Program-made: the position numbers and the translations under genes
NCBI GenBank assembly: GCA_023150835.1
Contig: JAKLKB010000095.1
Span: forward strand, 1 to 25,881
Reading direction: 5' to 3'
Length of the DNA stretch: 25,881 nt
DNA from: Myxococcota bacterium
GTDB taxonomy: Bacteria > Myxococcota_C > UBA6777
In this document: piece after piece, positions 3,446 to 25,881 of the stretch
Numbering within the stretch: the first letter of the stretch is position 1
Layout of the letters: each line of letters starts with the position of its first letter
The notes under the pieces: generated by a model
What the model saw: only the letters and a program-made list of their open reading frames with translations
Told to the model about the DNA's origin: nothing
The model's database searches: none

Positions 3446-3481
3446 GGGCATTCCTCATAGGTTCGGTCGATGGGGACAAAA

Positions 3482-3516: not shown

Positions 3517-3608
3517 GGCAACGAGCAGGGGCAGCACAAAGGACAGAGAGAGAAAACGGATGCTGTGTGATATCGAGTGAGGTCTCTTGCGCGTTTGATA
3601 TGTTTTGC

Positions 3609-3636
3609 AGGATACATACGGGCATCTCCTTGTCAA
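3609..3636 (-). promoter_or_regulatory. Putative sigma70-type promoter, minus strand
   Basis: On the minus strand TTGACA (3636-3631) is followed after 16 bases by TATCCT (3614-3609). The -35 box is a perfect consensus match and the -10 box matches four of six. It points at the solute-binding gene and implies a leader of about 155 bases. Confidence 0.5.
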
Positions 3637-3706
3637 GGGCAGCGAGTGGGTACACGAGTGGTTGTTTTAGGACGTGGTGGTTTCGGGAAAAAGGGAGCAT
3701 AACGTG

Positions 3707-4216: not shown

Positions 4217-4262
4217 GAGTGTTTTTGGATGGATCATAGCGCAAAGAACGGGAGGATCTGCG

Positions 4263-5198
4263 ATGTGGTATCGTTGGCGAGGCGATGGGTGTTTGTGCGC
4301 GGTGTGGTGTTGGGTGGTGTGTTGGACGGTGTGTGGACAAGCCGAGGCGTATTCGCGCAGAAAAACCGAAGCGGGAGTGGCTGTTGCATGGAAGCGGATG
4401 CCTGTGCGTTTTGTGATCGACAATCGGGGGATGGGCGATTATTTCCGAAACTCCCCGACACGCGGTGCTGTCGGCTCGGAGCTTGCGGCGGCTCAACTGG
4501 CGTTTGATGTCTGGTCCAAGGCCACCTGCGTGGGCGGAAAAAAGACTTCGCTGAATTTTACGGACGGCGGTTTGGTGGGAGGAAAGAAGGTGGGGTACGA
4601 CAAGGCGTGTACCGATTGCAACACCAACTTGATCGTCTTCCATTCGTCCCAAGGTTCGTGGCCTTACGACAAGCTGTTGATCGAGCAAACCACCCTAAGC
4701 TACGACCAAAACACAGGCGAGCTTTTCGACATTGATACAGAGATCAACGCGGAACACTACGCTTTTTCGACGCAGACCGACAATACAGAAGAGATGCGCT
4801 ATGATCTGCAAAGCGTGTTGACGTTTGCCGTAGGCCGTTGGGTGGGCTTGGAAGAAGTCAAAGAGGCCGCCTTCAAAGAGTCCACCATGTACACCCAACT
4901 CGATCAAAAAGACACGAACAAGCGGACGCTTGCGGAGGATGATATCGGGGGGGTTTGCGCGATCTATCCACCCAAGGCCACCCCCAATGTCCCTGTGTAC
5001 CAGCAATCCGAGGCGTTCCGTGATGCGGGATGTTCGCAGATCCCACCTGTGTTTTCGTGGTGGTGGCTGGTGGGCGTGTTGGGGTTGTTTGGGTGGCGAA
5101 AACGCCGATCTTGCGGATATCGTATGCGGGTTGGATCGCGATGGGGCGAGCGACACGATCTGCACCACTGTTCGATGACAAACAATCGGTCGTTCTAA
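4263..5198 (+). CDS. Matrixin-like secreted protein lacking the zinc-binding motif, MYXO-CTERM-like tail
   Basis: The 311-residue product follows the matrixin-family plan of myxobacterial secreted proteases: a signal-like N-terminus (to about 29), a W...C segment near residue 84, DTEINAEHYAFST (158-170), DLQSVLT (181-187), a Met-turn-like STMY (207-210), and RTLAEDDIGGVCAIYP (221-236). Active members have HExxHxxGxxH directly after DLQSVLT. Here the segment is FAVGRWVGLEE (188-198): all three zinc His and the catalytic Glu are replaced, only Gly195 remains. This predicts a non-catalytic pseudoprotease. The C-terminus has GC (256-257), a hydrophobic stretch (WWWLVGVLGLFGW) and RKRRS, resembling a MYXO-CTERM sorting tail. 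About 28 further residues follow, which is unusual. GGGAGG lies 7 bases before the ATG at 4263. Expected at the cell surface or secreted. Confidence 0.8.
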   Translation: MWYRWRGDGCLCAVWCWVVCWTVCGQAEAYSRRKTEAGVAVAWKRMPVRFVIDNRGMGDYFRNSPTRGAVGSELAAAQLAFDVWSKATCVGGKKTSLNFTDGGLVGGKKVGYDKACTDCNTNLIVFHSSQGSWPYDKLLIEQTTLSYDQNTGELFDIDTEINAEHYAFSTQTDNTEEMRYDLQSVLTFAVGRWVGLEEVKEAAFKESTMYTQLDQKDTNKRTLAEDDIGGVCAIYPPKATPNVPVYQQSEAFRDAGCSQIPPVFSWWWLVGVLGLFGWRKRRSCGYRMRVGSRWGERHDLHHCSMTNNRSF

Positions 5199-5238
5199 GA
5201 GAACAAACGAATGCTGTGTGCATCGCTCGGAGTATGAT

Positions 5239-5832
5239 TTAACGCAAGAGCTGTTGTTGGTAGGGGAGATGATCGCGCAGGGAGCCGAGAAAGCAGGTTG
5301 TGGTGACGCTGCTGTGGGCGTGTTCGGTGGTGCGGAGATTCATGCAGAGTTGGGTGGTGTGCATAACGCAGGCGGAGCCGAGGGCATCGAGATGTTCGAT
5401 CAGAGCGTGAGCGATCTGGTGGGTGGCGAGTTCTTGGAGGGTGAGGCGGTGGGTGAGGCAGCGGACGAGCAGGCCGAGTTGTGAAAAGCCGACGATACGG
5501 TGTTTGGGGAGGTAGGCAAGGTGTGCGACGCCAAAAAAGGGCAGAAGATGATGAGGGCAGATCCCATGAAAGCGGATATCGCGGACCACGATCAGACCGC
5601 CATCTTGGGCGGGAAAGTGATCGGCGAGCAGTCGGGCGGGATCGTATCGATACCCATCAAGGAGGTCTTCTTGCCAACAAGCGGCGACACGTTCGGGGGT
5701 TTCGCGCAAGTGAGGCGCATCAGGCGGAACCCCCAGACCTTCGAGAAAAAGGCGGATGCCTTGGAGTATACGCTGAGGATCGGGGGTGTTGACTTGGGGG
5801 ATGTATCCTTGTTCTTCGGGGGCTGAGGGCAT
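5239..5832 (-). CDS. Divergent GTP cyclohydrolase I (FolE-like)
   Basis: The 197-residue product matches FolE along its length: ETPERVAACWQE (44-55), IVVRDIRFHGICPHHLLPFFG (81-101), AYLPKHRIVGFSQ (106-118), LQE (132-134) and SSVTTTCFLGS (174-184). FolE converts GTP to 7,8-dihydroneopterin triphosphate. The zinc ligands C92, H95 and C163 are kept. Compared with the E. coli enzyme from memory, the position of catalytic His179 is Gln161 (QLC instead of HxC), Lys136 is Gln118 and phosphate-binding Arg139 is Leu121. The fold is sure; classical activity is doubtful and a paralogue with altered chemistry is possible. GGAG lies 6 bases before the ATG at 5832. It converges with the matrixin-like gene across 40 bases. 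Confidence 0.85.
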   Translation of the reverse strand: MPSAPEEQGYIPQVNTPDPQRILQGIRLFLEGLGVPPDAPHLRETPERVAACWQEDLLDGYRYDPARLLADHFPAQDGGLIVVRDIRFHGICPHHLLPFFGVAHLAYLPKHRIVGFSQLGLLVRCLTHRLTLQELATHQIAHALIEHLDALGSACVMHTTQLCMNLRTTEHAHSSVTTTCFLGSLRDHLPYQQQLLR

Positions 5833-5886
5833 CGGTCTCTCCGAATGGTCGGTGCTGTGGGCGGTCTTGTCGCACGATGGGGTCAG

Positions 5887-5989
5887 GGAGGTTTTGTGCG
5901 CGCTTGTTGGCGAAGCGGCTTTTGGTGTTGGGCGGTTCTTTGGGGTCTGTTCTTGTCAAGGAGGCTTTGTGCGCGCTTGTTGGCGAAGC
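5887..5989. repeat. 30-bp direct repeat covering a lipoprotein gene 3' end
   Basis: Bases 5887-5916 and 5960-5989 are identical except one T/C difference (both contain TTTGTGCGCGCTTGTTGGCG). The second copy encodes the last residues of the lipoprotein gene; the first lies past its stop. It looks like a local duplication of the gene end. Confidence 0.8.
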
Positions 5990-6372
5990 TGTTGGAGTTT
6001 GGGTTGCAGCGGCGGTGGTAAGGATTCTTCGATCAGGAGATTCATCAGGAGATAGAATTGTTCGAGGTTTCCGAAGGATTTTTGTTTTTGTTTGTATTCT
6101 TCGATGTGTTGGAGGTTTGCGTGATAGGTTTCAAGGGAGATGGCGGGGAAGCGCAAGATCAAGAGGCGAAGGAGATCTTGGGGTTGTTCTTTTTCGCGGG
6201 GGTAGAGTTGATAAAAGGTGGTGCGAAGCCAGCGGATGCGTTGTTTTTGGGCGACTTGGGGGGCATGGAGCTCGTGGAGGGGGTGACGTGGACAGCCCTT
6301 CAAAAGAGGCATCCAAACAAGCAACAGACAGAAGACGAAGCGAGGCGGAGCAAAACAGCGTTGCATCGTCAA
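5956..6372 (-). CDS. Small putative lipoprotein
   Basis: The product has 138 residues. The N-terminus MTMQRCFAPPRF then a hydrophobic run ends in LLKGC, an acceptable lipobox with Cys27 as lipidated residue. The remainder is helical and charged (QHIEEYKQKQKSF, LQPKLQQLRQQ) with no recognised family. Its start overlaps the stop of the upstream TPR gene by ATGA, implying translational coupling, so it probably works with that protein. Confidence 0.75.
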   Translation of the reverse strand: MTMQRCFAPPRFVFCLLLVWMPLLKGCPRHPLHELHAPQVAQKQRIRWLRTTFYQLYPREKEQPQDLLRLLILRFPAISLETYHANLQHIEEYKQKQKSFGNLEQFYLLMNLLIEESLPPPLQPKLQQLRQQARTKPP

Positions 6373-7787
6373 AGGGTGATGATCCCTTTTTGGAGGAGTT
6401 GATGGAGGAGGCGCAAAAAATGGAATTCGGGGAGATTGCTGAGGAGAAGGAGATCGCGGAGGTTGGTGCGTCCGTCGATTTGGGAGAGCAGGAAACCTGC
6501 GCGGTGATCGAGTTCGAGGCTGGAAAGCTGTTGGAAGGAGACGTTGAGGCGGGGGGTTTGGGAGGCATTGGAGATCAGGCCAACGTATTCTTCTTGGAGG
6601 AAGCGTTCGCAGCGTTCGCGGAGGCGTTGTGCGGTGTCGGAGAGTTTTCCCGAACTTTGGAGGATCTCGATCATCTCGATCGCGCCTTGATAATCCTCAA
6701 AGTGATACAAGTCTTCAGCGGCGGCGAGTAACATATCGCGTTCATCGCGAGGAGCAGAAGGGGTTTCTTCCCAGAGTTCGATATGGGGCGGATGTTGCGT
6801 GGCAGCAGAAGCAGCGTGCGGGGGCGCTGCTTGTGGAAAGGAAGTGTAATGCGGCGAACTTTCGGTCTCGGTGAGATGTGCGGAGAGTGCGGGCAACAGA
6901 TCGCGGCTAGAGCGTGGGGAGGGGCCTTCAAAAGGGGAAGCGAGAGGGGAAGGGGAAGCGAGATGCAGATCATCAAACAGCAAGTGAGCGTAGTCGCTGC
7001 TAGGCGGAGGGTTCAGAAAAGAGTCGTCCTCTTCATGGGAGGGGGGTTGTGAGGCGGGAGAGCGTTCTTGTTTTTGGAGGGGGGAATCAAACGATCCACC
7101 TCTGGAGACAGACTCGTTGTGGGAGTGTTCTTGTTTTTGGAGGTGGGAGACGCGTGCGACGAAGCTACTCGGGGGGGCTGAGAGAAAAGAGTCGTCGAAG
7201 TAGGCGTCTTCTTCGGGGAAAGAGGGCGGATCCATGCGACCCGAGGGGCGCATAGGTGGCGGGTTCATTTGATCGAAAGATGCGGATGTTTCGTGGAGAG
7301 GTGAGGGAGACGGCGAACCCGTCGGCCATGCAAAGAGGGCATCGATATCGGGATCGGTGTTGTGTTGATCGGCAGAGGTCAGGTGTTGTGCGAGGTCAGG
7401 TGCTTGATGTGTCGAGGTGACAGGGGATTTGCGTGAAGCCGACGCGAGGTTGGGTGCTGGATGGGTCGATGTGACGGGAGATTTGCGAGCGGGGGGCGCG
7501 GTGTGTGCAGAGGTCTCTGTCGATCTGTGAGAAGTGGGCGCTGGATGGGTCGATGTGACGGGAGATTTGTGAGAAGTGGGTGATGGGTGGGAGTGTTTGG
7601 TCGATGTTTGTGGGAGAGGGGGGGGCGAGTAGGGGAGTTGTTGAAGGAGAAAGAGAGCGTGGGGGTGGCGAGGGTCGACGCGCAAGACTTCTTGCCAGCA
7701 GCGTTGTGCTTCAAGCCAATCGCCGCTTTGGTAGAAGTGGCGTCCTTTCTCGATGAGGGTTAGGATACGGACTTGTGCGTCGGTCAT
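6369..7787 (-). CDS. TPR protein with long Pro/Ser/His linker
   Basis: The product has 472 residues. Residues about 5-50 form a TPR-like hairpin (KGRHFYQSGDWLEAQRCWQEVLRVDPRHPHAL). Residues about 55-340 are disordered, rich in Pro, Ser, Thr and His, with repeated KSPVTSTHPAP-type units. A second helical repeat follows (AAAEDLYHFEDYQGAIEMIE). The C-terminal FLLSQIDGRTNLRDLLLLSNLPEFHFLRLL and KGIITL resembles the small helical module often seen at the ends of delta-proteobacterial regulatory proteins. It starts 4 bases after the DnaK stop with GGGAG 9 bases before the ATG, and is coupled to the lipoprotein gene. A scaffold or co-chaperone-like adaptor is possible, not shown. Confidence 0.8.
   Translation of the reverse strand: MTDAQVRILTLIEKGRHFYQSGDWLEAQRCWQEVLRVDPRHPHALFLLQQLPYSPPPLPQTSTKHSHPSPTSHKSPVTSTHPAPTSHRSTETSAHTAPPARKSPVTSTHPAPNLASASRKSPVTSTHQAPDLAQHLTSADQHNTDPDIDALFAWPTGSPSPSPLHETSASFDQMNPPPMRPSGRMDPPSFPEEDAYFDDSFLSAPPSSFVARVSHLQKQEHSHNESVSRGGSFDSPLQKQERSPASQPPSHEEDDSFLNPPPSSDYAHLLFDDLHLASPSPLASPFEGPSPRSSRDLLPALSAHLTETESSPHYTSFPQAAPPHAASAATQHPPHIELWEETPSAPRDERDMLLAAAEDLYHFEDYQGAIEMIEILQSSGKLSDTAQRLRERCERFLQEEYVGLISNASQTPRLNVSFQQLSSLELDHRAGFLLSQIDGRTNLRDLLLLSNLPEFHFLRLLHQLLQKGIITL
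7400..7573. repeat. Imperfect in-frame repeats in TPR gene linker
   Basis: Two 37-bp copies (7453-7489 and 7537-7573) differ at two positions and share GGATGGGTCGATGTGACGGG. A more diverged copy starts near 7400. They encode the KSPVTSTHPAP-type units of the disordered linker. Confidence 0.75.
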
Positions 7788-7791
7788 CGGG

Positions 7792-9636
7792 TCAGGCTCC
7801 CTTTTGGGCGTGTTCGAGGAGCTGGTGAAAGATCTTGCGTGTGCGTTGGAGTGCAGCGATCTCCGAGATCAGTTGAGGGAGATCTTCGGCAGCGATGGCG
7901 TGATGGGTGCGTTCGATGATCTCGTTGGCTTTGCGCAAGGCATCTTGGCCGAGCGGTAGTTCGCCGACGATCTTTTGGACTTTGGTTTTCATACGTTGGA
8001 CGTATTCGATATCTTGCTCGGCGATCTCGCGTTGGCGGAGGAATTCTTTGGAAGTTTTGCTTGCGAGGGCGTGATCGCGGTTTTCTTCGATCATGCGCTG
8101 GATCTCTTCTTCGGTGAGGTGGTTGCTGGCTTCAACGATGATCGATTGCTGTTGACCTGTTTCGAGATCGCGGGCGGCGACGGAGACGATCCCATCGGCG
8201 GAGATCGAGAACTTGACTTCGACTTCGACTTCGCCGCGTGGGGCAGGGCGCAAGCCATCTAGCACAAAGGCTCCAAGCAATTGATTCTCTTCGGCGCGGA
8301 ATGATTCGCCTTGGAGGACGAGGATCTTGACTTGGGTTTGGTAGTCTTTGACGGTGGTGAAGATGTGGCTGCGTGAGCAGGGGACGGTGGTGTTTTTGTC
8401 GATCAGGATCTGAAAGAAGCCACCTGCGATCATAATGCCCAAAGTATGGGGCGTGACATCAAGGAGCAGGACGTTGTTGCGCTGTTCCATGAGGGAGGCA
8501 CCTTGGAGGGCCGCACCGAGGGCCACCACTTCGTCGGGGTGGACGTTGCGCGAGGGGGTACGTCCAAAGAAGGATGTCACGGCTTGTTGGACGCGGGGCA
8601 TCCGCGTCATGCCACCGACGAGGATCACTTCGTCGATGTGTTTGGGGGTGAGGTTGGCCGAATCAAGGGCAAATTGGCAGATCTTGATCGAGCGTTGGAT
8701 CAGGTCATCGCACAGAGACACAAGTTTTTCGCGGGTGAGTGTTTGTTGGAGGTTGTGGGTTTTCCCTGCGTTATCCGTGATCAGAAAGGGGAGGTTGACT
8801 TCGGTTTCTTGGATGGTGGAGAGATCCCATCGGGCTTTTTCGGCGGCTTCTTTGAGGCGTTGCATGGTCATGGGTTCGCGGCGCAGGTCCAGTTTGTTGG
8901 CTTTGGCGAACCCAAAGATCAGCCATTCGATCACGCGCTGATCGAAGTCCTCGCCACCGAGAAAGGTATCGCCTGCGGTGGAGATCACTTCAAACACACC
9001 ATCTTTGAGTTCAAGGATCGAGATATCGAAGGTGCCACCGCCTAGATCGTACACTGCGATGCACTTTTCATCTTCGTCTTGGCGTCCATGTCCGTAGGCG
9101 AGGGCTGCGGCGGTTGGCTCGTTGAGGATGCGCAAGACTTCGAGGCCGGCCATGCGTCCTGCGTCTTTGGTGGCTTGGCGCTGGGCATCGTTAAAGTACG
9201 CTGGGACGGTGATCACGGCATATTTGATGGTTTCGTCGAGTTGTTCTTCGGCGAGTTCTCGGAGTTCGGCGAGGATTACGCTGCCGATCTCGGCGGCGCT
9301 ATAAGCGTGGCCGTAGATCTCGATCCGAGCGTCGTTGTGGGGGCCTGAGATAATCTTGTAAGGAACGACCGTTTGCATGCGTTTGACGATCGGAGAATCC
9401 CATCGTTGGCCGATCAAGCGTTTGGAGGCGTACACGGTGTGGGTGGCGTTGACGATGGCTTGGCGTTTGGCGAGGTGTCCGACGAGTCGTTCGCCTTTGT
9501 TGGTCATGGCGACGATCGAGGGCATCGTGGTGTACCCTGCGCTGTTGGCGAGAACACGGGGGCGGCCTTGTTCGACGATAGCGACACAAGAGTTCGTGGT
9601 TCCAAGATCAATACCGATTACGCGGCCTGTTGTCAT
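7792..9636 (-). CDS. dnaK: Hsp70 chaperone DnaK paralogue
   Basis: The product has 614 residues with the full Hsp70 ATPase domain: [13 protein letters not shown] (8-20), [45 protein letters not shown] and [11 protein letters not shown]. The substrate-binding domain is recognisable ([31 protein letters not shown]) and is followed by a helical lid. The disordered Gly-rich tail typical of housekeeping DnaK is absent, and neither dnaJ nor grpE is adjacent. This suggests a specialised paralogue; such copies in Myxococcus serve motility and envelope functions. GGAGAG lies 7 bases before the ATG. The symbol denotes the family only. Confidence 0.95.
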
Positions 9637-9765
9637 CGAGGCGCTCTCCGCTTGGGGGACACTGTGGGGGTGGGGGGAAAGAAAACTTCGGTGCGTGTGC
9701 TTGCTGCGGTATCTTGTGAAGAATCCTTGCGCATCATAGCGAAAAGGGCGGAGCGGAGCAAGGGC

Positions 9766-10401
9766 TTAGAGGTCTTTTTGAAGGATTCCGCCGATCTTGA
9801 GGGCCAAGGCGAGGTTGCCGTCGATGGCGACTTTCTTTTGTTTCCAAGCCTCTAGCGGATGGAGTTTGCGTTCTTGCATGGCGCGGGCTGTGGCGTAATC
9901 GGTGCGCAAGACAAACTCTGGGCTGCGGTCGAGCTGCTGCGTCCACAAGCCTGCTTTGAGCGAGAGGTTCCCTTCAGGGGAGCCTTCGAGGATGGCTTCA
10001 AAGACGACGGGGGTTTGGCGGAGGGCTTGGAGTTTGGCTTCTGTGAGGCGGGGGAGCTTACCGTTCTTTTTTTCTTCGTAGGCGATCAGTTTGTTGATGT
10101 ATTCTTCGGGTCCACCGGCTTCTTCGATCTCTTTGCATACGCGGTCGTACCACAGCGGAAGGGCGAGATCCCATTGTTGGCGGGTCGAGCGCACCGTCAA
10201 CAGCGGATCGCTGCTGCGGGTTTCTTTGGCGCTATAATCGCCTAGATCAAAGGTGAGTTTGCAAGACAGGCCACCTTCGCCTTGGATATCCAGTTGCACA
10301 TCAAAGCAGGCTTCTTCGAGAAGGGGTGGGGGGGAAAACACTTCTTTGGCCCAATCTGCGAGGATTTGAAAGAAGAATTCGCGGGGGGTGGGTTGAGGCA
10401 T
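9766..10401 (-). CDS. SCP2 sterol-binding-domain-like protein
   Basis: The product has 211 residues and no signal peptide. The C-terminal half resembles an SCP2 lipid-binding fold: FEAILEGSPEGNLSLKAGLW, RTDYATARAMQERKLHPLEAWKQKKVAIDGNLALALKIGGIL, matching the family's ending with a charged helix and an I-x-G-N/D motif before a final helix. AAGGAG lies 8 bases before the ATG. It sits between mgtE (78-base gap) and the DnaK gene (129-base gap) on the same strand. A lipid or hydrophobic ligand carrier is likely; the ligand is unknown. Confidence 0.65.
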   Translation of the reverse strand: MPQPTPREFFFQILADWAKEVFSPPPLLEEACFDVQLDIQGEGGLSCKLTFDLGDYSAKETRSSDPLLTVRSTRQQWDLALPLWYDRVCKEIEEAGGPEEYINKLIAYEEKKNGKLPRLTEAKLQALRQTPVVFEAILEGSPEGNLSLKAGLWTQQLDRSPEFVLRTDYATARAMQERKLHPLEAWKQKKVAIDGNLALALKIGGILQKDL

Positions 10402-11970: not shown

Positions 11971-12070
11971 CGAACGCTCCAAGATGTCGGAAAAATCGCG
12001 TGTTGGTTTGGTGAGGTAGGGGGGGGCGCAGCGAGCAGAAGAACCTCAATGCCGGATGCCTTGTGCAGCA

Positions 12071-12091
12071 AGCAGACGTTTGCGATCTGCT
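12071..12091. other. Hairpin at the 3' end of the basic-tail membrane gene
   Basis: AGCAGACG (12071-12078), a TTTG loop and CGATCTGCT (12083-12091) form a stem with one bulge, overlapping the stop codon of the minus-strand gene. No T-run follows on the minus strand, so termination is only a possibility. Confidence 0.3.
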
Positions 12092-13112
12092 AGGGTTCTG
12101 TCGATGCGGCTGGGCGGGCTTGGGTGGGTGGTTTGCGTTTGAGGGCTTTTCGGCGAAGCGGAGCCTTTGAGGGGGCGGCGTTTGGGGAGCCGATCGCCGA
12201 GCGTTTTTTGAGTGCGCGTCGCCTTTTGGAGGGGCGGGGGGCTGTGGGTTGTCGGGGCGAACCTTTGCGCAGAAGCCGCTTGGTCGGGCCTTTGCGAAAA
12301 GGGCTAGGCCGTTTGAGGAGCAGGACGCGCCGAGGTGGTGTGGGGGTAGCCTCTTCTTCCTCTTCTTCTTTTTCTTCTGCGGGATCGCTTCCTGCGTCGG
12401 CGGGAGCGGCTTCGGCGGAGGGTTCGGCGGTGTTGGGTTCGGCGGTGTTGGGTTCGGTGGTGTTGGGTTCGGTCGTTGTCGAAGGTTCGTCCGCAGGGGC
12501 GGACTCTGCGGAAGGTTCGGTCGTTGCGGGAGCTCCTGCGTTGGGGGCGATGCGGGGCGATTTGGGGGCGGGCAGGGCGGGCAGCGGGGGGTGGGGGCGT
12601 TGTTTTCCTTGGATAGCGGGGGGGGAGGGCGGCCAGAGGGTTGCGCGCAAGAACCAAAGAGCCACGCCGACCGCGAAAAGAACGATCAACAAGGTCAGCA
12701 ACACCCACAAGAAGCCGCTGGTCTTGGGCGGCTGTTGGAGCAGATCTTCGGTCAGGCTTTCGGCGGGTAGGACGGTTTGAGGGAGTGGGCGCAACAACAA
12801 CCGATCCGCTTGTTGCAGGTTGGCTTGTGCAAAGGTCTGGTTGATGCGCAGGGGTTCATCGTGGCCGTTGCGTCGGACAAACGCTTGCCAGCGATTGCGG
12901 ACGGTCTTCGGGTCTAAAAACGCATCGACTTCGCGCAGGTGACCCAAGACAAAGGCTTCCATCAAGACGCGATCTAGCACGCGCCCGATCTCTTCGTCTT
13001 TGGAGGCGACGGTTCGGCGGATCAAGCACACATCGTCACCCAGTTGCCAAGAGACCGCGATCAAACTGGCATTGAAATTCTCGGGGAGCAGGGGGGATTC
13101 ACGTTCGGTCAT
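12090..13112 (-). CDS. Single-pass membrane protein with acidic linker and highly basic tail
   Basis: The product has 340 residues. Residues 1-128 form a compact, probably cytoplasmic domain with no recognised family. One membrane helix spans about 132-155 (SGFLWVLLTLLIVLFAVGVALWFL). A Pro/Ala region, EPNT-type repeats and a Glu run (EEKEEEEEEA) follow. The last about 80 residues are strongly basic (KRPSPFRKGPTKRLLRKGSP, KRRRALKKRS). If the N-terminus is cytoplasmic, the basic tail is periplasmic and could bind the cell wall or an acidic polymer; this is inference. Its ATG overlaps the stop of the FHA-GGDEF gene (ATGA) with GGAG upstream, so the two are translated together. Confidence 0.75.
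   Translation of the reverse strand: MTERESPLLPENFNASLIAVSWQLGDDVCLIRRTVASKDEEIGRVLDRVLMEAFVLGHLREVDAFLDPKTVRNRWQAFVRRNGHDEPLRINQTFAQANLQQADRLLLRPLPQTVLPAESLTEDLLQQPPKTSGFLWVLLTLLIVLFAVGVALWFLRATLWPPSPPAIQGKQRPHPPLPALPAPKSPRIAPNAGAPATTEPSAESAPADEPSTTTEPNTTEPNTAEPNTAEPSAEAAPADAGSDPAEEKEEEEEEATPTPPRRVLLLKRPSPFRKGPTKRLLRKGSPRQPTAPRPSKRRRALKKRSAIGSPNAAPSKAPLRRKALKRKPPTQARPAASTEP
12421..12480. repeat. 15-bp tandem repeat encoding EPNT-type units
   Basis: Four units of GGTTCGGCGGTGTTG type start at 12421, 12436, 12451 and 12466. The third has one change and the fourth is diverged. In the minus-strand gene they encode repeated Thr/Ala-Glu-Pro-Asn-Thr. Confidence 0.8.
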
Positions 13113-14068
13113 CGACAGAGCTCCGCATCCAAGGCTGTTGGCGATGGCGTCTCAAAGGCGATTTGATCGCCGCCTTGTTGTTGCGCGTGGTGGAGTTGTT
13201 TGTAGGCGGATTGCAAAAGCGAGAGGGGCAGATGAGCGGGGTGCGGGATCGTCGAAAGCATCCCGATCGACACGGTCAGACTACACCGTGCCGCATCGGT
13301 CGCCATCGCAAGCTGCTTTGTGGTCTGGCGGATGCGCTCGGCGACATGAAGCGCGCCTTCGTGGGGCGTTCCGCGAAGCAAGATCGCAAATTCATCGGCT
13401 CCTACACGCGCAAGCGTGTCTTCCCGACGAAGGCTTTGTTGCAACCGCTCGCTGTATTGGCACAGCAAGCGATCTCCTTGCGAAAACCCCCTCCTCTCGT
13501 TGTATTGCCGAAAACGATCGATATCCAAACACAAGATCGCGATCGGGTGTTGGTGCCGCTTGGCATACGACCACTCTTGGTCGAGAAGATCTTGAAAGTG
13601 TTTTGCGTTCGCGAGTTGCGTTAGCGGATCGTGGCTCGAAGACCGATAGATCTGTTCTTGGCAAGCGATCTCGTCTTCTTTTAGTTGCAAAAACTTGAAC
13701 GCCAAATATGGCCCGATCTGCAACCGATCGCCGTGTTGGAGTCGATGACGCTCCACGATCGGCTGCCCTTGGATCCGAAGGCTTTGAGGGGGGTGTACGT
13801 TTTCGAGGAAAAGCTGACCCGCCTCTACAAAGATACGCGCCTGTTCGGTCGCGATCTCTGGATACGCAAGGCAAAGATCCGCCCCCTCCCTTCGACCGAT
13901 CTGGATCGCCCCTTCTCGCGCTGGCAAGTAAAACAGCCGACCCGTCCCCACTCCCGATAACTGCACAAGGCATGGCTGGCTTTGGGTTGACTCCCCCATC
14001 GCCGCTTGGGGCGAAAACTCGTCCGTCGGTCGGTGCGCGTCGTGAAATCTTGTGTCTGTTCGTTGCAT
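13109..14068 (-). CDS. FHA-GGDEF protein, probable diguanylate cyclase or derivative
   Basis: The product has 319 residues. Residues about 33-128 form an FHA-like domain (GAIQIGRREGADLCLAYPEI), but the phosphothreonine-binding S-x-x-H is replaced (IATEQARI). Residues about 144-305 form a GGDEF domain (SHDPLTQLAN, CLDIDRFRQYN, GFSQGDRLL). The signature is GADEF (223-227) instead of GG(D/E)EF; the Asp-Glu pair is kept. An inhibitory I-site RRED (214-217) lies five residues before it, as in c-di-GMP-regulated cyclases. Activity is uncertain because of the Gly to Ala change. The start at 14068 has a weak ribosome site; Met24 is an alternative. It is coupled to the basic-tail membrane protein. Confidence 0.9.
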   Translation of the reverse strand: MQRTDTRFHDAHRPTDEFSPQAAMGESTQSQPCLVQLSGVGTGRLFYLPAREGAIQIGRREGADLCLAYPEIATEQARIFVEAGQLFLENVHPPQSLRIQGQPIVERHRLQHGDRLQIGPYLAFKFLQLKEDEIACQEQIYRSSSHDPLTQLANAKHFQDLLDQEWSYAKRHQHPIAILCLDIDRFRQYNERRGFSQGDRLLCQYSERLQQSLRREDTLARVGADEFAILLRGTPHEGALHVAERIRQTTKQLAMATDAARCSLTVSIGMLSTIPHPAHLPLSLLQSAYKQLHHAQQQGGDQIAFETPSPTALDAELCR

Positions 14069-14142
14069 GCGAAACCCGCAAAGAAAGTGGATGGGTGGCT
14101 TTGCTCTCTTCGTGACTTATGCTATCGTTTTTTTGTTGCCTT

Positions 14143-14179
14143 GTACAGCGCTATCCTCTCCCCACAGAATGCGCTGTAC
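14143..14179. promoter_or_regulatory. 9-bp perfect inverted repeat in divergent intergenic region
   Basis: GTACAGCGC (14143-14151) and GCGCTGTAC (14171-14179) are exact inverted copies with a 19-base spacer. They lie between the divergent FHA-GGDEF gene and the plus-strand gene at 14272. An operator for one or both directions, or a transcript hairpin, is possible. Confidence 0.45.
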
Positions 14180-14271
14180 CGTCCTCTCCGTGTCCTCTCT
14201 CCCTCTCCCACGAAGCGGACTCCCCACAACTTCCGTTCTTTGCACCCCTTATACCGAGAGGAAACATCACC

Positions 14272-14517
14272 ATGCGTATCTCGTCCATCCATCGCTCCGA
14301 ACGTAGCGTGTACGACCGCATCCAAGCCCTCCACGAACACGAAACCGCACAACGCCGCATCCGCGCCATCGACGCCCAAGAACTCAACCGCACCAACACT
14401 TCTTTTCCCCAAGTCATGCAACAACTTCAAGACCCTGAAGCCCCTCGAACCCTGCGCGTCATCGAAGTCCTTTTTGCTCCCGGACATCCCAATCCCCGAA
14501 CATATCGCCTTGGATAG
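14272..14517 (+). pseudogene. N-terminal part of a gene split by apparent compensating frameshifts
   Basis: The frame encodes 81 residues (MRISSIHRSERSVYDRIQAL onward, charged and helical) and ends at TAG 14515-14517. It lies in the same frame as the 14578-15777 gene, and the sequence after the TAG remains coding-like (SFSLEQNRFAFALAIGQHHP) up to the next ATG. If the T5 run at 14471-14475 had one T fewer and CCC at 14525-14527 one C more, a single frame would read on through LLPDIPIPEHIALDSPSP into LEQNRFAFALAIG. So this is probably the first part of one protein of about 500 residues. Either the gene is broken or the sequence has two homopolymer errors. A weak AGAGG lies about 10 bases before the ATG. 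Confidence 0.6.
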
Positions 14518-14577
14518 TCCTTCTCCCTCGAACAAAACCGCTTCGCCTTCGCGCTCGCCATCGGACAACATCACCCT

Positions 14578-15777
14578 ATGATCCGAATTAATAGCTTCCT
14601 TCATCGTCAGCGCCTTCTCGATATCACACGGCGTTGGTTCTACAACCAAATGGAAACGGGCGATGTCCCCGCCCTCAAGGCCATCATCAACTACAACAGC
14701 ATCTGGATGGGTCGCATCGGACGCAGCTTTTCCCAATGGCTTTTTGGGGCCTACGCGCAGCCTCCCATCGTCGAGCGTGTCGTCACCAGCAAAGGCGCTC
14801 TCAAAGACCTTTTGGTCGCCCACCCACCCTTTGAAAACCAGCGCATCCGCGAGCTTATCGAGCGTTATCGCGAACATCCTGAGCGCTACTTTCGCGAAAC
14901 CCCCTTCTCGGGCGTCATCTACGAAGGCGTTCGCAACGGCATCTCCACCTACGTCGGCTCTCGCCGTGTCAAGCGCGTCCGACGTATCGCTGAAAAGGGC
15001 GCCCGCCGCGTCAGCGATTATCTCTACGAACAGATCAAAGCTCGCGCCGATGCTCTTGCTCAACAGCGCGCTGATGCTCTCGGTGTCACCAAAAAAAATC
15101 TGATCACTTCCCCAAGCGAGATGGTCGTCGAGTTTGAACGCGCTGAACGCCGCATCGCCTCCGATATCCAACGTGGTCGCTTCTTTCGCGATGCCCTTGA
15201 GTTCGTCCTCGAAGATGTCTTCGGCATCAAGATCATCGTCGAAGATGAAGAACAGCCCGGCTTGATCCGCCTCCTCGAAGAATCACCACAATGCCAGATC
15301 CTTGAGATCGAACACCATCGCGGCCAATACAACGCAACCAACGTCGTCTTTCGCTACTTCCCCCGTACCGACGAGCTTTTGGCTGCGCCTCTCGAACCGG
15401 ATACCCTCCAACGCCTCGCCGCTCGCGGTATGAACCCCGCCGACGCCCAAAATGAGTTCCGCGACTTTGTCCTCAGCGGCGAAGATTCCATCCACATCGA
15501 ACTGATCATCTGCAACTTCGAACAAATGCTCGAATCCGAGATCGGCCGCACCATGCACGAAGATCGCATCGTCCGACAGCGCATCCAACAAGTTTATCGC
15601 GGCCCCCTCGCTCGAAACGTCAGCTATCTCATGGAATACATCTTTGCTTGCGGCATCTCGCCTCGCACCCACATCGATGCCATCCCGATCCATCTCTGGA
15701 ACCAGTATATGCCCGATTACTTCGATGAAGTGATCAAAGACCTCTTCCATATCCCAAACTTCCGTGAGATCGAATAG
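14578..15777 (+). CDS. Unknown protein, possible distant RelA/SpoT-like nucleotidyltransferase fold
   Basis: The visible frame encodes 399 residues and probably continues the 14272 frame. No family is clear. Residues about 185-331 show a pattern reminiscent of RelA/SpoT synthetase domains: EDVFGIKIIVED (212-223, compare D-x-x-G-x-R-I-I), GQYNATNVVFRY (249-260, compare the GYxSxH region) and IHIELIICNFEQMLESEIGR followed by TMHEDR (305-330, compare E-x-Q-I-R-T...AE-x-G-x-A-A-H). Key residues differ (Lys for Arg at 218, Glu308-Leu-Ile instead of Glu-x-Gln), so (p)ppGpp synthesis cannot be claimed. The N-terminal half is basic and helical (SRRVKRVRRIAEKGARRVSD). No ribosome site precedes 14578, in line with the gene starting further upstream. 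The sppA-like gene follows after 50 bases. Confidence 0.7.
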   Translation: MIRINSFLHRQRLLDITRRWFYNQMETGDVPALKAIINYNSIWMGRIGRSFSQWLFGAYAQPPIVERVVTSKGALKDLLVAHPPFENQRIRELIERYREHPERYFRETPFSGVIYEGVRNGISTYVGSRRVKRVRRIAEKGARRVSDYLYEQIKARADALAQQRADALGVTKKNLITSPSEMVVEFERAERRIASDIQRGRFFRDALEFVLEDVFGIKIIVEDEEQPGLIRLLEESPQCQILEIEHHRGQYNATNVVFRYFPRTDELLAAPLEPDTLQRLAARGMNPADAQNEFRDFVLSGEDSIHIELIICNFEQMLESEIGRTMHEDRIVRQRIQQVYRGPLARNVSYLMEYIFACGISPRTHIDAIPIHLWNQYMPDYFDEVIKDLFHIPNFREIE

Positions 15778-20997: not shown

Positions 20998-21357
20998 ATG
21001 AAGAGTGTTGATTTGTTTGCGGGGGCGGGTGGCTTGTCGTGCGGTCTCCAACTGGCGGGCTTTACCCCCCTGTTGGCGAACGAGTGGGTGCCTCAGTACG
21101 CCGAAACCTATAAGCTAAACCATCCAAACACAGAGGTGATCGTCGGGGATGTGCGCGAAGTCAGCGAAACCGATTTGAAGCGTAAACTCGGTGTGGTCGA
21201 GGGCGAGATCGATCTGGTTGCTGGTGGGCCGCCATGCCAAGGCTTCTCGATCAACGCCCCCATACGCAGTTTGGGGGATGAACGCAACCACTTGATGAGA
21301 TTCCGAACGGTGTTTCTTGGCATACGGCACTTGCAGCGTCACGACTGCTTTTGGTGA
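20998..21357 (+). pseudogene. Truncated C5 cytosine DNA methyltransferase
   Basis: The frame encodes 119 residues. Motif I (DLFAGAGGLSCGLQLAGF) and motif IV with the catalytic Cys80 (AGGPPCQGFS) are intact, then NAPIRSLGDERNHL as in Dcm-type enzymes. After residue 99 the sequence departs (MRFRTVFLGIRHLQ...) and stops. Family members have about 330-450 residues, so the rest of the catalytic domain and the target-recognition domain are missing. GGGAGG lies 12 bases before the ATG. It cannot methylate DNA alone. The departure point coincides with the start of an out-of-frame endonuclease-like piece, so a deletion probably joined two genes. Confidence 0.9.
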
Positions 21358-21637: not shown

Positions 21638-21663
21638 GTATGCTCTTGGTCTTTTGTGGCGGT

Positions 21664-21921
21664 GGTGGACGCAAAAAAGCGACGGCCCAAAGCCGCCAAC
21701 CTTGGTGGACGCAAAAAAGCGACGGCCCAAAGCCGCCAACCTTGGTGGACGCAAAAAAGCGACGGCCCAAAGCCGCCAACCTTGGTGGACGCAAAAAAAG
21801 CGACGGCAAAAAGCTGCCAATCGTGGTGGACGCAAAAAAAGCGACGGCAAAAAGCTGCCAATCGTGGTGGACGCAAAAAAAGCGATGGCCCAAAGCCGCC
21901 AACCGTGGTGGGCGCGAAGAC
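21664..21921. repeat. Tandem array of six 40/41-bp units plus a partial seventh
   Basis: Units start at 21664, 21704, 21744 (40 bp, A6), 21784, 21825 and 21866 (41 bp, A7), with a degraded seventh from 21907. Each begins GGTGGACGC, then a poly-A run, then GCGACGGC or GCGATGGC. The first three are identical. Units four and five are identical to each other and carry AAAAAGCTGCCAATCGT in place of CCAAAGCCGCCAACCTT. The sixth is intermediate. Units abut without spacers, so this is not a CRISPR. All six frames are open across it. It ends just before the HEPN gene. Confidence 0.95.
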
Positions 21922-21949: not shown

Positions 21950-22459
21950 GTGAAGAAAAGCAAGCACACGTTGAGCGAGGAACAAAAACAGATGCTTTCG
22001 GCGGCGTTGCGGCATACGAGAGATGCGCGGACGTTGCTTGTAGAGCGGGGAGGTTGTGTGGCTTCACCAGATCAGTCGTGGCATTTGGCAGGGTTTGGTC
22101 TGGAGTGTTTGCGCAAGGCGTGTTTGTTTGAGCGGTGGGCAGACAGGGAGTCTCAGGCGAGATCGAAAAAGGCACCGAAGGATGCTGCGGATTTGAGGAT
22201 GGCGTTGGGGCATACTCTCGAAGAGACCGATCTTTTGGACCTGTTTTTGTCGTTGGATGCGCACGCTTGGCGGTATCGATTGCAGTTAAACGAAACGGCG
22301 GATGTGGTGGGGGAGTGGCATCCCGAGGCGCGTTATGCGCGAACAGGGACGCATCAGGAGCCAAAAGTGCGGAGATTGGTTGACTTTGTGGAGAAAAACG
22401 TGGAGGTTGTGACGGCGTTGTTGTGGGCGGATGGCCGCTTGCTTGACCCAGAGATTTGA
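21950..22459 (+). CDS. HEPN-domain protein, predicted RNase toxin
   Basis: The product has 169 residues from GTG 21950, with AAGGGGAG just upstream. An in-frame ATG at 21992 is an alternative. The sequence has HEPN hallmarks: a first helix (MLSAALRHTRDARTLL, 15-30), a second helix WHLAGFGLECLRKACLF (44-60, compare the family's hLAGhxhExxLKA), the R-x4-H motif RMALGH (R83-H88), and WHPEARY (123-129) as in many HEPN proteins. HEPN proteins of conflict systems are metal-independent RNases acting as dimers. It opens a four-gene operon and overlaps the next frame by 29 bases. Domain assignment is fairly firm; RNase activity is inferred from R-x4-H. Confidence 0.8.
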   Translation: MKKSKHTLSEEQKQMLSAALRHTRDARTLLVERGGCVASPDQSWHLAGFGLECLRKACLFERWADRESQARSKKAPKDAADLRMALGHTLEETDLLDLFLSLDAHAWRYRLQLNETADVVGEWHPEARYARTGTHQEPKVRRLVDFVEKNVEVVTALLWADGRLLDPEI

Positions 22460-22613
22460 GGACGAGGGTTGTCGCCTTCTGAGTTCGGAGGTTGATGGAC
22501 GTGACGAAAAACAAAAGACCGAGACACCCGAGAGTTTGGCGGTCAGATGCGTCACCTTCGGCATCGACCCATACAAGCGCGTCGCCGATCCGTCGAAAGA
22601 GACCGAACAGTGA
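22431..22613 (+). CDS. Small protein of the conflict operon, 60 residues
   Basis: The frame starts at ATG 22431 inside the HEPN gene and its TGA overlaps the next ATG by one base (TGATG). TTG 22443 is another possible start. The product (RFEDEGCRLLSSEVD, VTFGIDPYKRVADPSKETEQ) is charged, without signal peptide or known domain. Tight packing between two operon genes and mixed, protein-like composition support it. It could be an antitoxin-like or adaptor peptide; that is a guess. Confidence 0.5.
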   Translation: MAACLTQRFEDEGCRLLSSEVDGRDEKQKTETPESLAVRCVTFGIDPYKRVADPSKETEQ

Positions 22614-24001
22614 TGAGCCTTCATTTTGATACTGTGTTGCCTGCATTGATGGGGATCGTGAGCCGTAGCCCGCTGTTTCAGGAGGGAATGGAAAAGATCT
22701 GTGTGATCCGTGATCTTCGGGGTTGCTTGCGGCTGGTGCTCCATCTCAAGGAATCCACAAAGCGCGGATCGGAGATACCAGATTTAGAGAAAGAACTGCG
22801 TGGGCAGTTAGGGATTTGGTTTCAAGGGCCGATCTTGACGAATTGTGTGGATGAATCGATGGCGCGGAGGCGTACCGCCGAGGTCCTGATGGAAAGGGCC
22901 TGTAGGCAAAAGATCGGTTGGCCTCCCCATTGGCCGCAAGAGGTGGAGGGGGAACTTGGAGCAAAGAGGCCGATTGAGCAGGAGCGCTGGTGCTCTTTGG
23001 AGCGGGTACAAAGCAAAGAAACATGGTTATCGCGGACGTCGGGAGAGCCGCCGTGGGGGTTGGAACAGGGAAATCCTGCGATCGTGTCGTTTTATTCGTT
23101 TAAGGGTGGGGTGGGGCGGACCACTTGTATGGGTGTACTCGCGTACCAGCTTGCGAAAGCGGGAAAGAAAGTGGTCTGTGTGGATCTTGATCTGGAAGCC
23201 CCTGGAGTGGCGGATGTGTTGGGGTTGGCGGTGCCGGAACTTGGTTTGATGGACTATCTGCTGTCCTCGCTGGTTGGGGAAGGGACGGCAACGCTGCAAC
23301 TCTCCGATATCTGTCGGCGGGTTGCGTTGCATGGTGTGCCTGTGTGGGTTGTTCCGGCGGGGAAATCGGATGCTGTTGCGTACGTCGAAAAGTTGGCACG
23401 TTTGGATTATTTGTCGGGGATAGATCTGGCGAGCGAGACACAAAGCCCAGTTGCGAAGGGGATGACAAACCTCTTGAGGGCGATAAAAGGGCAAGAGAAG
23501 CCTGATTTTGTGTTTTTGGACTGCCGCGCAGGATTCCATGATCTGGGGGGTTTGGGGTTGCACGATCTCGCGCACGTCGAAGTCCTTGTGGGTCGTGCTT
23601 CGTTGCAGACGCGACATGGTTTGGAAGTGATCTTGGCGCTCCAAAAACAGCGCAGAAAAGAGCAGCAGCGACGTATTTGTTTGGTGCATACCTTTGCTTC
23701 GGCGGACAAGGACGAGCGTGCGGGGCAGCATGAAAGGTGGCGAGGACAGTTGTACGAACTCTTTCAAGCGAATCAGATGTACAGCGGCGCATCGGAGATC
23801 CCGCAGGAAGCAGACGATCAAGCCGCCCATTTCCCTTGGACCATCGAATTCAACCAAAGCGTCGGGTATGCCGCTTCGCTTGCCGATGCGGATCTTCGTT
23901 TGTTGTTGGAGGATCCAGACAGCAGCTACGCGAGGCTGCGCCGTCGCGTGGAAGAACTGTGCGAAGCGGAACAACCTGCGGATGGGGAGGTGGGGCGGTG
24001 A
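22613..24001 (+). CDS. ParA/MinD-like ATPase with KGGVGR Walker A variant
   Basis: The product has 462 residues. An N-terminal helical region (1-150) of unknown family precedes a deviant-Walker P-loop domain: FYSFKGGVGRTT (160-171), VVCVDLDLEAPGVADVL (187-203) and a Walker B-like FVFLDCRAGFHDL (299-311). ParA/MinD proteins have KGGVGKTT. Here the P-loop Lys is Arg169 while the signature Lys164 remains. This variant defines a group of ATPases found in predicted NTP-dependent conflict systems, which I recall as KGGVGR-motif ATPases. The ATG at 22613 overlaps the previous stop. A cognate switch or sensor for the HEPN effector, with the next gene, is likely; no experiment is known to me. Confidence 0.85.
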   Translation: MSLHFDTVLPALMGIVSRSPLFQEGMEKICVIRDLRGCLRLVLHLKESTKRGSEIPDLEKELRGQLGIWFQGPILTNCVDESMARRRTAEVLMERACRQKIGWPPHWPQEVEGELGAKRPIEQERWCSLERVQSKETWLSRTSGEPPWGLEQGNPAIVSFYSFKGGVGRTTCMGVLAYQLAKAGKKVVCVDLDLEAPGVADVLGLAVPELGLMDYLLSSLVGEGTATLQLSDICRRVALHGVPVWVVPAGKSDAVAYVEKLARLDYLSGIDLASETQSPVAKGMTNLLRAIKGQEKPDFVFLDCRAGFHDLGGLGLHDLAHVEVLVGRASLQTRHGLEVILALQKQRRKEQQRRICLVHTFASADKDERAGQHERWRGQLYELFQANQMYSGASEIPQEADDQAAHFPWTIEFNQSVGYAASLADADLRLLLEDPDSSYARLRRRVEELCEAEQPADGEVGR

Positions 24002-25599
24002 ACGAGTTGTTGGAACAACGCGAGCGGTATTTGTGGGCGCTGCGCGACATCACCAGCCCCGAAGAGCGAAGCGAGCCACAGGAACGCCGCCGCCGATTTT
24101 TGTGGTTGCCGGAGTATCGAGAGGCGCTCGATCCGCGTGTTCTTGTGGTGCGGGGCGAACGGGGCGCAGGAAAAACAGCGCTTTTTCATGTGTTTTCCAT
24201 GTTTGCTTCTCGTGAGGGGCGGTTAGAAAGCGTTGAGGTGCCTGCTTGGATGCGTTGGGAGTCGTCTTTTTCGTTGGAGAAAAATCGGTGGCTAGTTGGA
24301 TTTTCGGAAGAAGGGACGCAACACCCCTCTCCGTTGGTGTTGGCGACGTTTTATCGTGAGGCTCCACAAGACTCTGAACGGCTACGCCATTTTTGGTTCG
24401 GTTCTTTGGTGGGGCTGTTGGGGGAGTGGAGTTTGGGGGAGGATGCGGAAAGAAAAGCAGCGATGTGGGAAAAGCTGTCGCCGTTTTGGGAAGTCTGGCG
24501 TGCAGCGCGTCATGCTCCGTCGGTGTGGGCTCCTGCGGTGGGGGCGCAAGTCTCGTTGTTGCTGGGGGTGTTGGACGAGATCGAGCAAAGATTGGAGAGA
24601 GAGGGGCGGTATCTGTTTGTGGTGTACGATCAGCTTGATCGCATCGGCTTGGGTGATGCGGTGATGCAGAAAGAATCGATCAAGATCTTGTTGCAGATCT
24701 GGCAGTCGTTTTCGAGCCGATACAAACGCCTGCGAGCGAAGATCTTTTTGCGTGAAGACCTTTATCAATCGGTGAGCCGAAGTTATACGGATGCAGGGAA
24801 GTTGGAAAGCCTGTCTTGTTCGATGCGTTGGTCGGTCGAGAACTTGTACCGAGTGTTGTACCGACGGATGTTGGCGTCAGAGGAGCTTCGGGGGTGGTTG
24901 GTCGCGTTGGGGTTCCCTGTTGGAATAGAAGATCCTGAGTGGGGTGCGTATCCGCCGTCTATGCCGCCCGAGACAGAAGACGACCCACAGCTATCGATCC
25001 CCGAAGTTCTGGAAGGTGCGCAGGGGAGAAGTGAGAAGCTTCGTTCGGTTTCTCAGCTTTCTTTGATGGAAGCGATGGTGGGGCGAACGATGGGGGCTGG
25101 TGTGAACAAGGGTTATGTGCATCGTTGGATCCCCAACCATCTTTCGGACGCCAACAAAGCGATCGTGCCGCGTTCGATGCTGAACTTGTTTTATTTTGCA
25201 GCGAGTGACGCTTTGAAGCGGATGCCGAGAGTGCAAGAAGGGCATCTGTTGCACCACACCGCGTTGATGGAAGGTCTGAGAGAAGCGTCCGTGTATCGGA
25301 TGAAGGAACTGCAAGAAGAATATCTGTTCGTTCAACGCCTTGGGTTGTTGCGTGGGATGACGCTGTTTGCAGCCCAAGAAGAGGTTGAACAAAAGCTGTC
25401 AGGTCTTCCGCTTGATGGGAAAGAGGATGGCTATGGGAGCGATGGAAAGCGTGTGTTTGCGGAGCTTGAACGATTGGGGATCTTGAAGGTGCGCAAAGAA
25501 AGGAGGGCGGGTATGCCCGATGAGAGGCGGGTGGATATGCCCGATCTGTATCGTTTGGGTCTGGAGATCAAGCGGCGCGGCGGCGTAGCGAGGGGGTGA
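23998..25599 (+). CDS. P-loop ATPase, Sll1717/STAND-like, of the conflict operon
   Basis: The product has 533 residues from GTG 23998, overlapping the KGGVGR stop as GTGA, with GGGGAGG 7 bases upstream. Walker A is GERGAGKT (53-60) and Walker B is YLFVVYDQLDRIG (205-217), followed by a sensor-like AKIFLREDLYQSV (247-259). This layout fits the Sll1717-type family, distantly related to Orc/STAND ATPases: N-terminal P-loop, a long helical insertion, a D-x-L-D element and an R-x-D-L-Y/W element. The C-terminal 230 residues are helical and could form a winged-helix or sensing region. It ends the operon. A role in sensing and gating the HEPN effector is inferred. Confidence 0.85.
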   Translation: MNELLEQRERYLWALRDITSPEERSEPQERRRRFLWLPEYREALDPRVLVVRGERGAGKTALFHVFSMFASREGRLESVEVPAWMRWESSFSLEKNRWLVGFSEEGTQHPSPLVLATFYREAPQDSERLRHFWFGSLVGLLGEWSLGEDAERKAAMWEKLSPFWEVWRAARHAPSVWAPAVGAQVSLLLGVLDEIEQRLEREGRYLFVVYDQLDRIGLGDAVMQKESIKILLQIWQSFSSRYKRLRAKIFLREDLYQSVSRSYTDAGKLESLSCSMRWSVENLYRVLYRRMLASEELRGWLVALGFPVGIEDPEWGAYPPSMPPETEDDPQLSIPEVLEGAQGRSEKLRSVSQLSLMEAMVGRTMGAGVNKGYVHRWIPNHLSDANKAIVPRSMLNLFYFAASDALKRMPRVQEGHLLHHTALMEGLREASVYRMKELQEEYLFVQRLGLLRGMTLFAAQEEVEQKLSGLPLDGKEDGYGSDGKRVFAELERLGILKVRKERRAGMPDERRVDMPDLYRLGLEIKRRGGVARG

Positions 25600-25881
25600 T
25601 ACGAGATCCGCCCGTTGTGTGATTGTAAGGATGTAGGGGCAGACCCCATAGGCGTTAGGTGAAGCGGAGGAAAGCCCCCCACCCCGCCCTCCCCCGTGAA
25701 CAGGGGAGGGAGCGAAAGTCGGAAGCATCGGGGATTTTGTTTTTTCATGACACACGCTGTATGCACGACGCGCAGACGCTGCCCGTTCCAACTTCCCCCC
25801 GTTCACGGGGGGATTGAGGGGGGGAGAAAAAAAAGGCGATCAAGACCGACTCTACGAGGTTTCCACCTTAACAAGGCGCGT
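25600..25881. other. Right-end intergenic stretch, no gene seen
   Basis: No frame with a ribosome site was found. The stretch holds two GC-rich palindromes (listed separately) and a T-rich segment at 25733-25746 (ATTTTGTTTTTTC) about 23 bases after the first palindrome, which might end the operon's transcript. Confidence 0.5.
25687..25813. repeat. Pair of REP-like palindromes in mutual inversion
   Basis: First palindrome: CCCTCCCC (25687-25694) and GGGGAGGG (25703-25710) around an 8-base loop. Second: CCCCCCG (25796-25802) and CGGGGGG (25807-25813) around TTCA. The first reads CCCCCGTGAAC and the second contains its inverse GTTCACGGGGG, so they are inverted copies of one element. Such C/G-block palindromes are typical of dispersed extragenic repeats. 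The first could also end the conflict operon. Confidence 0.6.

Follow-up and report, generated by a model that had tools for sequence, protein, structure and literature searches.

The window, that is, the whole 25,881-nucleotide stretch of DNA analysed here (contig JAKLKB010000095.1 of a Myxococcota bacterium), carries a cassette of three genes, A, B and C, which is a divergent and apparently intact version of PDC-M28, an antiviral candidate made up of three genes, as judged from profile matches and from alignments in which the window copy keeps the invariant residues of A, B and C. Gene A encodes a predicted HEPN-fold protein, gene B a variant MinD/ParA-like ATPase with the KGGVGR motif and gene C an ATPase of the Sll1717 family. 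We consider it likely, with a probability of roughly 0.6, that the cassette forms a sensor of two nucleoside triphosphatases (NTPases) that controls a HEPN effector. The locus was pointed out by an earlier note as four frames of the same strand, and these were re-derived from the sequence: they lie on the plus strand at 21950-22459, 22431-22613, 22613-24001 and 23998-25599, with consecutive overlaps of 29, 1 (TGATG) and 4 (GTGA) bases. Gene A begins with a GTG codon at 21950 that is preceded by the purine-rich stretch GAAGGGGAGCAG. The features of the locus are as follows.

21950..22459, plus strand: gene A (gene 1), putative HEPN-fold protein of 169 residues with a GTG start, PDC-M28A; PADLOC match at 5.7e-7, PF05168 in relatives, AlphaFold2 model, structural matches and column conservation.
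22148..22201, plus strand: insertion of residues 67-84 in gene A, found in the window copy alone and including R83 of RMALGH; alignments with the 12 nearest relatives and 101 homologues.
22431..22613, plus strand: copy-specific frame of 60 residues bridging A and B, possibly translated; no family match, no relatives, coding-like codon positions.
22613..24001, plus strand: gene B (gene 3), KGGVGR-variant MinD/ParA-like ATPase of 462 residues with an N-terminal region of about 150 residues, PDC-M28B; PADLOC match at 1.1e-59, NF047398 at 4.9e-43.
23998..25599, plus strand: gene C (gene 4), Sll1717-family P-loop ATPase of 533 residues with a predicted fold like ORC/Cdc6 and BrxC, PDC-M28C; PADLOC match at 1.4e-58, NF047389 at 6.6e-24, AlphaFold2 model.

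The name PDC stands for phage defence candidate (PMC11514479). The candidate PDC-M28 is represented in PADLOC-DB 2.0.0 by the models PDLC04558-04561, of which PDC-M28A, PDC-M28B and PDC-M28C match genes 1, 3 and 4 in this order with the E-values given above, and the match to PDC-M28B spans residues 1-453 of gene B. The PDC candidates reportedly originate in the 'guilt-by-embedding' preprint of Payne et al. Our assignment is based on the E-values of the models and on gene order rather than on PADLOC's own cut-offs and gene-distance rule; the genes in the window are adjacent, lie on the same strand and have the A-B-C order of PDC-M28, and the same order was found in 100 of 108 relatives of gene B. 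The B and C models also match the B or C proteins of all five relatives tested. The B and C proteins of the nearest relative, locus L048, are likewise matched well, whereas its HEPN protein (6526-6975) misses 1e-5 with the PDC-M28A model; hence, the clade of the window seems to lie at the edge of what PADLOC recognises and may be under-called by it. PDC-M28 and the window cassette share the same three parts, all three genes matching, while the window copy differs by an 18-residue insert in the HEPN protein, a gap of 153 bases between A and B and the 60-residue frame. Judged by these matches, the cassette is already catalogued as an antiviral candidate, so it is not the candidate for an undescribed system that the earlier note had seen in it. 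In the available part of a 2020 eLife paper on conflict systems dependent on nucleoside triphosphates (NTPs), inactive MinD/ParA-like domains are mentioned, the trio of HEPN, KGGVGR and Sll1717 proteins is not.

The extent of the conserved unit was deduced from the relatives of gene B. The single gene B sequence of the window, used as query of genome contigs, gave no confirmed relative, and an alignment was required; a profile search with nine gene B proteins as input led to 80 genomic and 16 viral loci. All frames of 107 loci were then scanned with hidden Markov models of A, B and C, and 108 B genes were recovered; these counts are slightly too high, as a handful of loci repeat the same record. 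Gene A lies immediately upstream of B in 101 of these 108 cases, gene C lies downstream of B or is fused to it in 104, and both partners are present in 100. Fusions of B with C (roughly 740-950 residues) account for 17 of the B genes, and no fusion of A with B was seen among the 108. Of the eight exceptions, four lack a detected A and one lacks a detected C, and the other three are distant KGGVGR proteins that have neither partner and serve as an internal negative control. The KGGVGR proteins of L137, L141 and L142 (IMG/VR), which have neither a HEPN nor an Sll1717 partner, may belong to other KGGVGR systems. Pairwise protein identities correlate over 74 cassettes (Spearman coefficients of 0.63 for A and B, 0.72 for B and C, and 0.65 for A and C; permutation p of 0.003, the lowest possible with 299 shuffles), as would be expected if the three genes travel together. 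From gene order and these identities, the conserved unit is the set of three genes A, B and C, which appear to be inherited together. The earlier note had described a four-part combination; its HEPN, KGGVGR and Sll1717 genes do recur as a conserved neighbourhood, but the 60-residue gene is not among them.

The phylogeny of the unit does not follow that of its hosts. In the tree of B proteins, which spans at least eleven phyla, the window copy groups with a metagenome-assembled genome of Acidobacteriota and with Comamonas, in a clade in which Myxococcota, Planctomycetota and Pseudomonadota are intermingled. Since the tree does not follow phyla, the sequences suggest that the cassette spreads horizontally. 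The genome of the window itself (7.6 Mb, 239 contigs) contains one copy of gene B, and no full-length relative of it was present in the four other genomes of this small phylum. On an Oscillatoriales contig (L072), two cassettes occur at 6482-9798 and 11978-15110, the two differing in that B and C are separate genes in one and fused in the other.

The identification of gene A as a HEPN protein is supported by profile matches of its relatives and by structure prediction. The window protein alone gave no Pfam or NCBIfam match above cut-off, but PF05168 (HEPN) is matched by 30 of 79 aligned family members (best E-value 3.5e-8) and HEPN_AbiV by 3 of 79. The AlphaFold2 model (predicted local distance difference test score, pLDDT, 84.8; predicted template modelling score, pTM, 0.81) has helices at residues 10-30, 40-58, 125-129 and 137-160, of which the second and third are separated by a long insert. 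The best VIA-align matches of this model are the HEPN structures 4nqf, TT1696, human sacsin, AF0298, ST0689 and TM0613 with Z-values from 11.0 to 8.9, and although values of up to 11 are within the chance range for helical bundles, the top matches are nearly all HEPN proteins. A search of solved structures with the HEPN profile by sequence gave nothing convincing. The assignment of the 169-residue protein to the HEPN fold in the earlier note thus agrees with the model and with the Pfam matches of its relatives.

The active site proposed in that note, by contrast, had to be relocated. The motif RMALGH (R-x4-H) was rejected as the HEPN site: the alignment places R83 in the 18-residue insert (67-84) that is absent from all 12 nearest relatives, 95 of 101 homologues have no residue aligned with R83, and R-x4-H occurs in 49% of shuffles of the gene A protein (R-x4-6-H in 86%). 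Across the 101 gene A sequences the conserved positions are instead E52 (98/98), K56 (97/98), H88 (98/98), R128 (100/100) and Y129 (99/100), so that H88 and R128, together with E52 and K56, replace the former pair of R83 and H88. In the model, E52 and K56 lie on helix 2, H88 in the insert between helices 2 and 3, and R128-Y129 at the end of helix 3. The canonical HEPN motif Rx4-6H at the end of helix 3 is not conserved in the 101 sequences; the window protein has R128-x6-H135, but H135 is not conserved and a histidine five to seven residues after R128 is present in 5 of 101 sequences only. Comparable arrangements have been described in the AF0298-like HEPN-T proteins and in AbiV, in which the motif arginine stays and the motif histidine is typically absent; a second conserved histidine from the insert between helices 2 and 3 may form an alternative active site, and an Ex3[KR] motif is found in many HEPN families (PMC3710099). 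Gene A shares the insert histidine, the arginine at the end of helix 3 and the Ex3K of helix 2 with these proteins, which are among its structural matches (AF0298-like, pdb 2hsb, and AbiV). Hence, the conserved residues and their modelled positions support a membership of A in the HEPN-T class with an alternative histidine, and it is these residues of the alternative site that would argue for a ribonuclease (RNase) activity. AF0298-like HEPN-T proteins and AbiV occur alone or with an MNT nucleotidyltransferase, while A is encoded with two NTPases. The small protein of the MNT-HEPN pair (MntA/HepT) also has the HEPN fold in common with A, but its partner is a nucleotidyltransferase, of which there is none in the window cassette, and HepT-type HEPN proteins (DUF86) mostly keep the canonical motif.

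Genes B and C encode two different ATPases, whose motifs KGGVGRTT and GERGAGKT had been recognised correctly; both pass the cut-offs of their NCBIfam families (147.7 bits versus 90 for AAA_KGGVGR, NF047398; 84.8 bits versus 75 for ATPase_Sll1717, NF047389). In the MinD/ParA-like core of B, the signature lysine K164 is kept and the P-loop lysine is always an arginine, R169 (91 sequences). In P-loop NTPases, an arginine in place of this lysine suggests nucleotide binding with altered hydrolysis. Searched against solved structures, the KGGVGR profile mainly hits the P-loop region of ParA, MinD and ArsA, and the Sll1717 profile found nothing convincing by sequence. Gene C has canonical, conserved residues in Walker A (K59) and in Walker B (D211, D214), and K248-x3-R252-x-D254 is conserved as well. 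Its AlphaFold2 model (pLDDT 90, pTM 0.90) matches BrxC of BREX, archaeal ORC/Cdc6, RdrA of RADAR and NLR-type ATPases, with BrxC and ORC proteins as the best Foldseek matches, and supports the classification of C as an ORC/Cdc6-type P-loop ATPase. From the secondary structure, residues 483-522 form what looks like a helix-strand-strand-helix segment compatible with a winged helix. The likeness to BrxC (Foldseek E-value 1.6e-5 to 9zdx) and to RdrA (VIA Z of 10.6 to 8hr8) is structural; C proteins are about 470-530 residues long, and C of the window matches no BREX or RADAR model in PADLOC and has different partners. None of the PADLOC BREX models matched any of the three proteins at E <= 1, and no BREX gene was among the upstream frames of the window scanned with Pfam.

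The order A-B-C, the constancy of the three parts and the fusions, which join B to C but do not include A, suggest a single B-C module that would control A. According to the mechanism we propose, B and C would act as a joint NTP-dependent sensor or scaffold that holds A inactive. When C reads a cue of infection, the nucleotide state of the B-C unit would change, which in turn would free or cluster A, and A would then cleave or bind RNA, such that phage growth stops, probably at the cost of the cell. A more specific version of this mechanism, which we offer tentatively and with clearly less confidence, sees a distinct NTP-gated immune complex, in which an ORC/BrxC-like sensor would be permanently coupled to a MinD-like KGGVGR switch with its arginine P-loop and would gate a HEPN RNase with a relocated histidine (H88 with R128, E52 and K56), i.e. 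two unrelated P-loop ATPases acting on one effector.

Alternatively, A could be a toxin and B its antitoxin, with the ParA-like ATPase neutralising the HEPN protein by binding or modifying it and C being an added sensor. Such a function was postulated for the ATPase in the gene pair of a HEPN protein (MAE_18760) and a ParA/Soj ATPase (Anantharaman et al. 2013, PMC3710099), which resembles the cassette in that a HEPN gene stands beside a ParA-class ATPase; the adjacency of A and B in 101 of 108 cases and the solved HEPN-MNT toxin-antitoxin structures among the fold matches of A point in the same direction. However, the pair has no third gene, while C is near-constant in the cassette and as constant a partner as B, and the 17 B-C fusions, with no A-B fusion seen, suggest that the primary unit is B-C and not A-B. 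Moreover, the published listing has MAE_18760 keep Rx4-6H, a motif that is not conserved in the gene A family; the window HEPN itself reaches no Pfam cut-off, and its relatives match PF05168 instead. We regard such a toxin-antitoxin function as unlikely.

The genomic contexts of the relatives are in line with the two-NTPase sensor as part of antiviral defence. A BREX-2 locus on a Sphaerotilus plasmid (L038) contains the cassette, flanked by pglX on one side and by DUF6079/pglZ on the other. The nearest relative of the window cassette, L048, has a full-length PglX gene of the BREX-2 type immediately upstream of A-B-C (2861-9903 for the whole stretch), the second PglX-type embedding in BREX-2 that was seen. 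Further copies stand beside PglZ (L117), behind type I restriction genes (L132) or near recombinase or integrase genes on plasmids of Paraburkholderia and Gemmobacter. In IMG/VR, 13 of 16 loci carry the cassette, and the loci examined have terminase, integrase, antiterminator Q, replication or tail genes nearby; gene B found no match in annotated phage records. Chromosomal copies also exist. The neighbour scan revealed defence families, which are used here as individual cases and not as a statistic. Taken as such, the contexts (BREX, type I restriction-modification, prophages and plasmids) support a role in antiviral defence, and the view of the earlier note on the kind of system agrees with them. 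The cassette probably acts alone, because numerous copies lack a BREX gene in their vicinity.

These contexts also bear on the possibility that A is a nucleotide- or RNA-binding adaptor instead of an RNase, with killing or DNA targeting residing in the BrxC-like C or in neighbouring systems such as BREX. The lack of a conserved Rx4-6H would fit such a role, as HEPN domains in which charged and polar residues are not conserved are likely to be inactive binding domains (PMC3710099), and the Foldseek similarity of C to BrxC and ORC as well as the embedding of the cassette in BREX-2 speak for an activity in C or in BREX. Yet, A strictly conserves E52, K56, H88, R128 and Y129, the pattern predicted for the alternative active site, and copies without a nearby BREX gene are numerous. 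This explanation appears improbable to a similar degree as the toxin-antitoxin function.

The 60-residue frame deserves separate consideration, because it was counted as one of four parts before. Neither Pfam nor PADLOC nor NCBIfam yielded a match for it, and searches of plasmids and of the four other genomes of the phylum revealed no relative. In those relatives whose alignment covers the very start of B, the gap between A and B ranges from -7 to +33 bases, leaving no room for such a frame, with the exception of L117 (125 bases), whose HEPN frame is truncated. The guanine-plus-cytosine content by codon position (0.62/0.44/0.64) resembles that of the neighbouring genes, and its codon score, for which the genes of the window served as reference, is higher than that of 25% of coding stretches and lower than that of 9% of non-coding frames. 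An ATG frame of at least 60 codons ending at the junction arises in 1.2% of Markov shuffles. The frame may hence be translated, since its codon positions are coding-like, its ends are coupled and it is rare in shuffles. Nevertheless, the four-gene system was rejected, and according to the alignments the frame is not a component of the conserved system. That it is a real fourth component, an antitoxin or regulator acquired by the window copy, could be concluded from its coupling to A (29-base overlap) and to B (TGATG) and from the codon and shuffle statistics, but no homologue was found anywhere searched, the codon score is not decisive and the relatives do without it, which makes a fourth component quite unlikely. 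Finally, partition or maintenance of a mobile element by the ParA-like and ORC-like ATPases is very improbable, as the relatedness to ParA/MinD and ORC/Cdc6 and the copies on plasmids and prophages are outweighed by features foreign to partition loci (chromosomal copies, the BREX embedding, type I restriction-modification neighbours and a near-constant HEPN partner) and by the KGGVGR motif replacing the P-loop lysine of ParA.

Several points weigh against the interpretation of the cassette as a sensor-controlled antiviral effector. In the literature searched, there is no paper naming PDC-M28, none of relevance on PDC-M28, on KGGVGR in the present sense or on Sll1717, and no experimental study of the cassette by name. 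The defence neighbours are examples without a matched background, and many neighbours are ordinary genes. The fold of A relies partly on Z-values in the range mentioned above, and A may bind rather than cut RNA because the canonical Rx4-6H is not conserved. The association of A with B and with C is deduced from the sequences and not from a predicted contact, and the putative antiviral activity of the cassette from sequence together with predicted structure. Despite these points, the cassette is of interest as a widespread candidate, occurring in at least eleven phyla and on plasmids and prophages, whose likely active site is now defined after correction of the catalytic pair. The true three-gene unit and its key residues (H88/R128/E52 in A, K164/R169 in B, K59/D211/D214 in C) can now be named, the B-C fusions point to a joint module, and the prophage-borne copies are suited for cloning.

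The surroundings of the locus in the window contain some minor features. The upstream neighbour at 20998-21357 is a C5 cytosine DNA methyltransferase of which the N-terminal third is present (positions 1-91 of 324 in PF00145), after which the frame is lost; the wrecked restriction-modification locus suspected there is thus borne out for the methyltransferase, but no restriction enzyme was identified beside it. Neither a structured RNA nor a tRNA was found near the locus, and the promoter scan gave none where 1.4 were expected by chance. Just upstream of gene A, at 21662-21915, a 41-base unit is repeated in tandem, with 6.3 copies and 93% matches, and the units look terminator-like on the minus strand; a related array (81% identity) is situated elsewhere in the same genome (G000:C132:81830-82091) and the array was not found in the other genome of the genus. 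Downstream of gene C, at 25680-25820, the DNA contains G/C-rich inverted stretches of the type CCCCCGTGAACAGGGG, which possibly belong to an intergenic repeat family.

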